This document shows positions 29,522 to 40,569 of a stretch of 41,131 nt of DNA, in pieces. Made by a program: the position numbers and the translations under genes. Below the pieces are notes generated by a model, which searched no databases, was not told the origin of the DNA, and saw nothing but the letters and a program-made list of their open reading frames with translations. Each line of letters begins with the position of its first letter. Within the stretch, counting starts at the first letter, position 1. Where the stretch lies: positions 1-41,131 of the forward strand of contig JACAEW010000217.1 in the NCBI GenBank assembly GCA_013388675.1, read 5' to 3'. The stretch comes from Syntrophaceae bacterium (GTDB taxonomy: Bacteria; Desulfobacterota; SM23-61).

Positions 29522-30184
29522 TTGATTATACTAGGCGATAAGGAGGTAGGAATGGGTTTAAATCACAAGGATGAGCGGGCGACCCACAAAATCTATTGGG
29601 AAAGCCTGGAAAAGACGGAGCCCAACGAGGTTTGCCGCAGGACCGGGGCTTCCTACCGCCAGGATCGGAAAGGATACCTTCTCCCTGTCCTGAACCAAAA
29701 ATATCTGATCCTGCCGGGGGAAAAGCGAATGCTCTGTATGCGGGGAGACCTCTGCGAGGAAGAATCCTTACGCGATTATTTCTTCCTCATGGTCTTACTT
29801 TATCTTTTGCATGGTCAAGGACAAGATCCCACCCATACCTGGATCAGCGAAAAGGAGCTTAAGGGGGGCACCACCTTCTTCCGGGGGCCTCATGCCCTAA
29901 GAACAGAGGAATTGACGGAGACTTTTGGAAAAGACCCGGAGGGTTTCTTGCAAGTGGGGAAGAGACTGGGCGGGGTAGAGCTTCTCTTCGGTGACAAGGC
30001 GTTTGCCTTGACCGTCCTTCCAAGAGTCCCTCTCGCCTACCTTCTGTGGAAAGAAAGTGAGGAGTTTCCGGCCCGAGTCAATGTCCTTTTTGACTCCACA
30101 ATCCAGAAGCACTTTTCCCTGGATGGAATCTGGTGCCTCGTGGCTGAGGTGAGCCAGCGCCTCCTGGAAGCCAGAAGTCGGTGA
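29522..30184 (+). CDS. DUF3786-like protein
   Basis: PNEVCRRTGASYRQDRKGYLLPVLNQKYLILPGEK...FFRGPHALRTEELTETFGKDPEGFLQVGKRLGG...FGDKAFALTVLPRVPLAYLLWKESEEFPARVNVLFDSTIQKHFSLDGIWCL resembles DUF3786; recalled pattern, not searched. Confidence 0.7.
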   Translation: MIILGDKEVGMGLNHKDERATHKIYWESLEKTEPNEVCRRTGASYRQDRKGYLLPVLNQKYLILPGEKRMLCMRGDLCEEESLRDYFFLMVLLYLLHGQGQDPTHTWISEKELKGGTTFFRGPHALRTEELTETFGKDPEGFLQVGKRLGGVELLFGDKAFALTVLPRVPLAYLLWKESEEFPARVNVLFDSTIQKHFSLDGIWCLVAEVSQRLLEARSR

Positions 30185-31074
30185 AAGGCAAAATTGCCTA
30201 CATCGTTGCCGACCTGGAAGGGTCCACCGGGGCCTGGACCAAGGCCCACACCCTTCTGAGAACCCCCGAGTGGCAGGAAGCAAGGGTCGAGCTGACCCGG
30301 GATATAAATGCGGTGACTGACGCCCTCTTAGCCAGAGGAGTCAGGGGCGTGGTGGTCAAAGACTTCCACCGGACGGGTTATAATATCATACCCGCCTATC
30401 TGGATAGGAGGGCCAAGCTGGTCTCCGGCTATTATACCGGGCCGGCAGTCGGGTACGGTAATTTGTATGGGGCCGATTTCGCCCTCTTTGTCGGCCTCCA
30501 CGCCGCAGGGGGGAATGAAAACGGGTTTCTGGCCCACACCCTGACCAGCCGGATAGCCGAAATCCTGGTAAACGGAAATAGGGTCTGCGAATCCGAGCTC
30601 TTTTCCACGGTTCTTTCTTCCTTTGAGGTGCCGGTGGCCTTTTTTTCCGGCTGCCCGGCCGCTTGCCGGGAGGTAAAGGACAGGATGGATTGGGTGGTCA
30701 CCTGCGCCGTGCCCAAAGACCTTTCAATTTACCAGGACCCGGATAAAAGGAAAGAGCATATCCAGAGAGCGAGGGGAAGCCTGCGAACCAGTGTGCTGGA
30801 GATGCCCTGGGTGGAGGGACTGGCGCTCTTTGCCATGAAACCGCCTTTTGATTGTGAGGTGATTTTCCAGGAAGAAAAAGAGGCAAATCGAATGAATGCT
30901 TGGGGCTTTCCCCGGGAGGGAAGGATCATTCGTTTCCACGCCGAAGAATTTCTGGAAATGTATGAAAATCTTCTAAAGATCGCTTATTTTCCCAAATTGG
31001 CCTACGCCCTCCGATATCTGGTAATTCCCCTGACCCGGGTCGTATGGGGAATCCAATCTTTAAAACACCTCTAA
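30181..31074 (+). CDS. M55 family (DppA-like) D-aminopeptidase
   Basis: KIAYIVADLEGSTG (DxEG), VVVKDFHRTGYNI, ALFVGLHAAGG, NGNRVCESEL; GTG start overlaps the upstream stop as GTGA. Confidence 0.82.
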   Translation: MKGKIAYIVADLEGSTGAWTKAHTLLRTPEWQEARVELTRDINAVTDALLARGVRGVVVKDFHRTGYNIIPAYLDRRAKLVSGYYTGPAVGYGNLYGADFALFVGLHAAGGNENGFLAHTLTSRIAEILVNGNRVCESELFSTVLSSFEVPVAFFSGCPAACREVKDRMDWVVTCAVPKDLSIYQDPDKRKEHIQRARGSLRTSVLEMPWVEGLALFAMKPPFDCEVIFQEEKEANRMNAWGFPREGRIIRFHAEEFLEMYENLLKIAYFPKLAYALRYLVIPLTRVVWGIQSLKHL

Positions 31075-39001: not shown

Positions 39002-40390
39002 TTACTCCCCTATCCAACAATGAAGACATAGTTTTTCCCGGGGCAGGCCGATGGCTTGAACCATGTCCTCGAGGGTTTGATACTTGAGGGTGGTGGCCCC
39101 CAATTCCCGGCGGATCCATTCCACCATCCTGGCATACTTTTCCGAATTCGCATCCAGATACTCGGAGACATCCTCGATATCCCGGCCCTCGATGCTCCGG
39201 ATGGCGCGGCGGGCCGCCAATTCGGAGGTGGAGCGGGTGGAAAGGGCGAATTTGCAGGGGAACATGAGGGGGGGGCAGGCCGGGCGGATGTGGACTTCCT
39301 TGGCCCCGTTTTCCCAAAGTTTTCTCAGGGTGTAATTCTTGAGCTGAGTGCCCCGGACGATGGAATCCTCGCAGAGAACGATTCGATTCCCGCAGATGAT
39401 CTCCTTGATGGGGATCAATTTCATGGTGGCCACCAGCTCGCGGATTTCCTGGGAGGGGGGAGTGTAGCTCCGGCCGTATCCCGGCGTGTACTTGGTCAAA
39501 GGCCGCCGGTGGGGAAGGCCGGACTCCATGGAGTATCCGATGGCATGCCCCACTCCCGAATCGGGAACGCCGGCCACCAGGTCAGCCTGGACTTTATCCC
39601 TCTTGGCTAGAAACCGGCCGCAGTTTTCCCTAACCAACTCCACATTAATCCCTTCATAGCTGGAAGCCGGGTACCCCGTATAAATCCAGAGAAAGGCGCA
39701 AATCTGGCTGGTTCCCCGACCGCTGGCTTTCTGCTTGAGGCCGTTTTTATCGATTAAGACTACCTCTCCGGGTTCGAGAAATTTGATGACCTTGAAGCCC
39801 AGGTTCAGGAAGGAGCTGGATTCGGTGGCCACGGCAAAATCGCCCCCTTTTTCCCCCACCACCAGGGGGTAACGGCCCAGGCGGTCCCGGGCCGCATAGA
39901 TCCCTTCCTTGGTTAAAAGAAGAAGAGTTGCGGACCCGTTGATTTTGTCGAACATTTTATCGATGCCATCGACTAGGTCCTTGCCGGTGTTTATTAGTTT
40001 GGCGATGAGCTCAATCGAGTTGATTCCCCCGCTCGTCATTTCTCCAAAGGAATGCCCTTCCTGCAAGAGTTCGGTGCCCAAAGCCTCCAGGTTTTCGATC
40101 AGGCCGGCGCTGACGATGGCGAAGGTCCCGAACCTGGAGCCGACGATGAGGGGCTGAGGGTCCCGGTCGCTGATTACCCCGATTCCCATGGGTCCCTGCA
40201 TGGTCTTGTATTCGTCCACGAATTTGGATTTGAACTGGGACTGGCTGATGTCATGAATGGCCCGGTTAAAGCGGGCGCCCAACACGGCCATGCCGCCGTA
40301 CTCGGTTCCCATGTGGGAATGGTAATCGACGCCGTAAAAAAGGGTGGAACCACAATTGTTCTTCGACACGATTCCAAAAATTCCGCTCAT
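39002..40390 (-). CDS. amidophosphoribosyltransferase (PurF)-like protein with degenerate glutaminase domain
   Basis: PRPP loop IVLCEDSIVRGTQL, AGVPDSGVGHAIGYSMESGLPHRRPLTKY, Ntn-like N-terminus MSGIFGIVSKNNC lacking Cys2. Confidence 0.88.
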   Translation of the reverse strand: MSGIFGIVSKNNCGSTLFYGVDYHSHMGTEYGGMAVLGARFNRAIHDISQSQFKSKFVDEYKTMQGPMGIGVISDRDPQPLIVGSRFGTFAIVSAGLIENLEALGTELLQEGHSFGEMTSGGINSIELIAKLINTGKDLVDGIDKMFDKINGSATLLLLTKEGIYAARDRLGRYPLVVGEKGGDFAVATESSSFLNLGFKVIKFLEPGEVVLIDKNGLKQKASGRGTSQICAFLWIYTGYPASSYEGINVELVRENCGRFLAKRDKVQADLVAGVPDSGVGHAIGYSMESGLPHRRPLTKYTPGYGRSYTPPSQEIRELVATMKLIPIKEIICGNRIVLCEDSIVRGTQLKNYTLRKLWENGAKEVHIRPACPPLMFPCKFALSTRSTSELAARRAIRSIEGRDIEDVSEYLDANSEKYARMVEWIRRELGATTLKYQTLEDMVQAIGLPREKLCLHCWIGE

Positions 40391-40569
40391 ACCCTGCCCT
40401 TTCCCTTAGTGAGGATTTTCCCGGAGAAAAAAGAGGGTCATGATTCCTCTCCTGAAAAATAAGAATTATACCAAAAAAAAATCTAACCTACATTTTTTTT
40501 CTTGGGAACCGAACCCAACCCGAGACGAGTTAACCTTTCGAATTTTTTTATCAACCATTTTAGATGACT

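Follow-up and report, generated by a model that had tools for sequence, protein, structure and literature searches.

Cys-less PurF homologues as probable ammonia-dependent phosphoribosylamine synthases

We analyzed a 41,131-nucleotide contig of a Syntrophaceae bacterium (the window, meaning this whole stretch of DNA) and found a Cys-less PurF-family gene encoding a protein of 462 amino acids (MSGIFG...CLHCWIGE; 39002..40390, minus strand), which was recognized through its ORF and through profile, phmmer, and Foldseek searches. As judged from sequence, Cys-less PurF is probably an ammonia-dependent synthase of 5-phosphoribosylamine (PRA), forming this product from PRPP with ammonia, not glutamine, as the nitrogen donor. 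In many anaerobes, the gene is the sole PurF copy and there most likely performs the PurF step, which suggests that anaerobes with Cys-less PurF alone start purine synthesis from ammonia. The glutaminase half, having neither the nucleophile nor the glutamine loop nor the substrate Asp, would be unable to use glutamine, and the phosphoribosyltransferase (PRTase) half, which keeps the PRPP site and the Fe-S-aligned cysteines, would make PRA. The nitrogen would come from free ammonia, as we infer because the glutaminase has been lost and because Cys1 mutants of E. coli PurF keep their ammonia use. As cited in PMC3261824, replacement of E. coli PurF Cys1 with Ala or Ser abolished the glutamine activity, and the ammonia activity was kept.

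The ORF begins with MSGIFGIVSKNNC, in which codon 2 (40385..40387, minus strand; sequence and residue audit) places Ser at the position of the PurF catalytic Cys1. Extension of the frame in the 5′ direction to the preceding stop added only GKGQG ahead of the Met; therefore, no upstream start can yield an MCG N-terminus, and an alternative start restoring the Cys was ruled out, since the stop-to-stop frame supplies none. An upstream ATG at 40441 is led by a Shine-Dalgarno sequence and is in frame with the Cys-less gene, but it is closed by TAA. The resulting 11-codon ORF preceding the PurF-like gene (MTLFFLRENPH; 40406-40441, minus strand) has a good Shine-Dalgarno sequence and starts just downstream of a TATAAT, and no similar ORF was seen by eye upstream of the close relatives L014, L015, L058, and L059. 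Comparison of the window gene with an 88%-identical congener fragment gave a dN/dS of ~0.06, indicating purifying selection, and this value together with the intact frame ruled out a pseudogene. A viral or mobile origin was also rejected, as the viral scan yielded no relative, and the Rfam scan near the gene found no riboswitch or other RNA. Elsewhere in the window, the gene at 30181-31074 (plus strand) resembles, as judged by eye, that of a DppA/M55 D-aminopeptidase (MKGKIAYIVADLEGSTG).

The window protein scored 200.5 bits against the TIGR01134 purF profile, under the 350-bit equivalog cut-off, and the members of the Cys-less family scored about 139-208 bits, all below this cut-off. The best phmmer matches were the PurF structures 1ao0/1gph, which aligned over the whole length (E 1.6e-53). 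An AlphaFold2 model built from 93 aligned sequences (pLDDT 92.3, pTM 0.90) showed the PurF two-domain fold, and Foldseek ranked the B. subtilis, Arabidopsis, and E. coli PurF at the top, with a TM of 0.84 to 1ao0. The Ntn-hydrolase (GATase_7-like) domain, whose catalytic residues are lost, covers approximately residues 1-225 (39716..40390, minus strand; Pfam PF13537 at residues 73-195).

The residue audit covered 119 Cys-less members, 5 Cys-retaining sister members, and 53 canonical PurF proteins in E. coli K-12 PurF numbering, and the glutaminase pocket was assessed from the alignment. At the Cys1 position, the Cys-less members contained Gly (83), Ser (34), Val (1), or a gap (1), and Cys in no case; the canonical controls contained Cys1 in 53/53 and kept the glutaminase positions in 52 or 53 of 53. 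The R26 position was Leu or Met, with Arg in none of the 119, R73-Y74-x-T76 was deleted in 119/119 in the alignment, N101 was lost in 113/119 and kept in 6, and D127 was retained in 0/119. The family as a whole therefore does not carry the glutaminase set of an N-terminal Cys plus R26, R73, N101, and D127. The preliminary description had claimed both Ser instead of the catalytic Cys and the loss of the other glutaminase elements, and these counts agree with it. It had also read the RYPTAG region as substituted by VISDRDPQPL; the region is indeed altered, but by removal of 8 alignment columns rather than by substitution. In the window protein, this deletion of the 8-residue glutamine loop (canonical RYSTMGSS) is marked by the S74/D75 junction (40168..40169, minus strand; alignment and residue audit).

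Ser2 of the window protein could be taken to mean that the enzyme is glutamine-dependent after all, with the N-terminal Ser or another residue as the nucleophile, and Ser can act as a nucleophile in other Ntn hydrolases. However, the nucleophile position is Gly in 83/119 members, no member retains the glutamine loop, Arg26, or Asp127, and Cys13 is not invariant in the family. Furthermore, E. coli PurF Cys1Ser is without glutamine activity (PMC3261824), and we consider glutamine dependence hardly credible. The mean pairwise identity within the Cys-less family was 0.53 for the N-terminal domain and 0.56 for the PRTase domain, compared with 0.50 and 0.51, respectively, within canonical PurF. The glutaminase-like domain, although dead, has thus been kept as well as the PRTase half, with a conserved DYHSHxGT/GIGVIS surface, and so still does something, perhaps in structure, ammonia intake, or ligand sensing. 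This conservation is unaccounted for by the ammonia-dependent reading.

The PRPP-binding loop (IVLCEDSIVRGTQLK, residues 336-350; 39341..39385, minus strand; alignment and residue audit) was intact, as had been described from the window protein. P302, S304, G305, K326, R332, K349, D367, S368, R371, G372, and T373 were invariant in 119/119 members, so that K326, R332, K349, and the P302/S304 loop are intact as well; D366 was D or E, and I369/V370 showed 1-2 conservative changes. The family thus has the features of a type I phosphoribosyltransferase, i.e., the DDSIVRGT loop, the pyrophosphate loop, and the flexible-loop Arg332 and Lys349. The position of E. coli T374 was Gln in all 119 members. 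The positions of E. coli Y74, Y329, I335, and D408, which presumably belong to the NH3 channel or to interdomain signalling, were also altered, and we counted this against the ammonia-dependent reading. The invariant Gln in place of T374 in the PRPP loop, together with the changed Y329/D408, would fit a phosphoribosyltransferase that uses another amine or nucleophile and makes a different phosphoribosyl product. We regard such a product as very improbable, however, since the gene occupies the operon slot of purF and shows covariation with purD, whose product consumes PRA, as detailed below.

Four cysteines of the window protein (minus strand; alignment) were located at positions corresponding to B. 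subtilis PurF Cys236, Cys382, Cys437, and Cys440, which we take to be the ligands of its 4Fe-4S cluster. Cys231 (39698..39700) is aligned with Cys236, Cys379 (39254..39256) with Cys382, and Cys455-x-x-Cys458 (39017..39028) with the canonical PurF CxxC (Cys437/Cys440). Across the family, Cys231 and Cys379 are invariant, and Cys455 and Cys458 are present at 90% or more. With four Cys at the aligned ligand positions, the Cys-less proteins would be of the Fe-S PurF type.

At least 590 loci of the Cys-less family were confirmed in the named-genome scan, of which 80 include Desulfobacterota, Omnitrophota, Planctomycetota, Lentisphaerae/Kiritimatiellae, and Spirochaetes, and also span Bacteroidales, Clostridia, Acidobacteria, and Asgard archaea (Lokiarchaeota/Heimdallarchaeota). 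In a FastTree phylogeny of 429 columns, the family was monophyletic (0.87) and separate from canonical PurF. The MGGFFGV-type branch mentioned in the preliminary description does exist and is the same Cys-less family as the window protein. A common occurrence of the MGG type in Bacteroides species was unsupported for Bacteroides ihuae, where the match was weaker than 1e-38. A sister PurF clade (L022-L026, from G003, G004, G006, G007, and G037) keeps Cys1, and its glutamine loop is absent; its joint support with the Cys-less family was 1.0. This clade shares with the Cys-less family the same glutamine-loop deletion and the GTQ and LCLKCW motifs, but it differs in having kept Cys1, H25, and R26 (CGVFG, HRGQ). 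At N101 it contains Ser, Asp127 is kept in 1/5, and VPMSG replaces VPDSG. This type was the sole PurF-like match in G003 and in G037, the latter a single contig, and both contained purD. The occurrence of Cys1 and HRGQ without the glutamine loop suggests that the loop may have been lost earlier than the nucleophile. We also observed a divergent PurF of ~630 amino acids (L106:8491-10395, plus strand), of the Bacteroidales type by eye, in tandem with a Cys-less type; it gave only two weak TIGR01134 pieces, and therefore automatic searches can miss it.

PurD consumes PRA, the product of PurF. Among 60 genomes of one Clostridia family, around G067, 28 contained canonical PurF, 23 contained Cys-less PurF only, and 8 contained neither; G103, with a partial canonical PurF match at a contig edge, was set apart. 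The purD gene was found in 21/23 Cys-less-only, 26/28 canonical, and 0/8 PurF-free genomes (Fisher test, p=6e-6 for Cys-less-only vs neither and p=1 for Cys-less-only vs canonical). Thus, the two PurF types are interchangeable with respect to purD. Similarly, 6 of 70 genomes in a second family, that of G065, contained Cys-less PurF only, all six with purD. A full-sensitivity search of 25 Cys-less-only genomes found no second full-length or divergent PurF at E<=1e-3, and the Cys-less copies read were of the form M[GS]GxFG...DYHSHLGT or close variants. Because many of the genomes are metagenome assemblies, a missing canonical PurF could in any one of them reflect a gap; that gaps explain the pattern in general is made less likely by the absence of purD from all eight genomes without PurF and by the replacement in operons, described below.

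The frequent co-occurrence of Cys-less and canonical PurF, and the co-occurrence with carB/guaA, nitrogen entry points of nucleotide synthesis, could point to a pseudo-enzyme with a PRPP-sensing or regulatory role, acting on canonical PurF or on nucleotide flux. We consider this improbable, however, because Cys-less PurF is the sole PurF in many purD-positive genomes and all its PRTase catalytic positions are invariant, including the flexible-loop K349 and R332, to which K324 and R307 of the window protein correspond.

The gene order at locus L178 was purC, the Cys-less gene, purM, purN, a purO-like gene, purH (AICAR formyltransferase), purD, and purL, and at L187, purE was located upstream of the Cys-less gene. 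In the control locus L204, the identical operon slot was held by canonical purF. The Cys-less gene and purD lay ~5 kb apart, in the same orientation, in at least 12 of the Cys-less-only genomes. Among the 80 loci listed, 23 had purF, purL, purQ, purM, purD, purC, purE, carB, guaA, or pyrG at <=3 kb, where the density of these nucleotide genes was 3.5 times that at 6.5-9.5 kb; genes in the loci were called by longest ORF, so that some were missed in GC-rich contigs, and the neighbour seeds for a Bacteroidales-type purF, an archaeal purF plus purL, and pyrG were named by eye. The Cys-less gene is therefore both linked to and co-occurring with purine-pathway genes. The PurO-like gene of L178 (3615-4379, minus strand) encodes a bacterial PurO-like IMP cyclohydrolase, scoring 66 of the 150 bits of the curated cut-off; it adjoins a stand-alone AICAR formyltransferase, an arrangement seen in pur operons of Clostridia.

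A separate partner glutaminase could dock on the vestigial Ntn domain and pass ammonia to the PRA synthase. The Ntn domain, as conserved as the PRTase domain, would fit such docking, as would the frequent position of the gene beside those of the glutamine-dependent enzymes carB, guaA, purL/purQ, and pyrG. However, in the operons read, the stretch from purC/E to purM contained no amidase gene, and a survey of class-II amidotransferases at E<=1e-3 found no further one in the five Cys-less-only assemblies G091, G101, G116, G117, and G145. A partner glutaminase is unlikely and is less likely than direct use of free ammonia. Being the sole PurF of many purD-keeping genomes and occupying the purF slot of pur operons, the Cys-less gene most likely provides the PurF activity of those genomes. 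Of the four roles offered in the preliminary description, this evidence favours the use of free ammonia and disfavours both a different product and a role in regulation alone, each of which is unlikely.

In the genome of the window itself, a canonical Cys-PurF is encoded on contig C138 (524 bits), directly downstream of carA-carB (carA by eye), and this copy ruled out that the genome lacks canonical PurF. No purine genes adjoin the Cys-less gene in the window; in G040 and G042, it is the Cys-less gene that adjoins carB. By orthology, we infer that the window protein would supply a second route to PRA, from ammonia, alongside the canonical glutamine-using enzyme. In G187, the canonical purF (C1:606936-608277) is split over two overlapping frames, through either gene decay or a frameshift error of the assembly, and an intact Cys-less PurF is also present.

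Purine synthesis is taught to depend on glutamine at its first committed step, and for this step many anaerobes appear to rely on an enzyme unable to use glutamine. This would change the annotation of purine prototrophy, the predicted DON/azaserine sensitivity, and nitrogen-economy models of gut bacteria. As a broader and tentative proposal, widespread ammonia-only PRA synthases may have replaced glutamine-dependent PurF in whole anaerobic lineages of gut Clostridia, the PurF having lost its glutamine loop by deletion and then its nucleophile, and the conserved ex-glutaminase domain would have taken a new role, e.g., in ammonium intake or allosteric sensing; taken jointly, these three parts seem to us somewhat more apt to fail than to hold. 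Our literature search, with most subscription journals outside its range, found no paper on the replacement of purF by the Cys-less type, and none beyond PMC3261824 on bacterial Cys-less PurF or an ammonia-dependent amidophosphoribosyltransferase.

Among known systems, the B. subtilis-type Fe-S PurF (EC 2.4.2.14; 1ao0, 1gph) shares with the Cys-less family the fold, the PRPP site, and the four aligned cysteines, and its operon position is taken by the Cys-less gene in many genomes. In contrast to this enzyme, the Cys-less family is without Cys1, R26, the R73-T76 loop, and D127, has mostly lost N101, contains Gln for T374, and scores below the TIGR01134 cut-off. Brown et al. 2011 (PMC3261824) described a crenarchaeal PurF′ with Ala/Val at the Cys position, encoded near purF, and proposed its ammonia dependence as a hypothesis. 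PurF′, which we compared by description only, is likewise a second PurF without the catalytic Cys near purine genes, with an ammonia role proposed; however, it is described as always standing beside canonical PurF and as having Ala/Val at the Cys position, whereas the Cys-less copy is often alone and has Gly/Ser. The Cys-less family offers a single-copy, operon-level system for the study of the role of Cys-less PurF′. The asparagine synthetases AsnA (ammonia) and AsnB (glutamine) form an analogous pair for one step, but these two have unrelated folds, whereas the putative ammonia form of PurF derives from the glutamine form.
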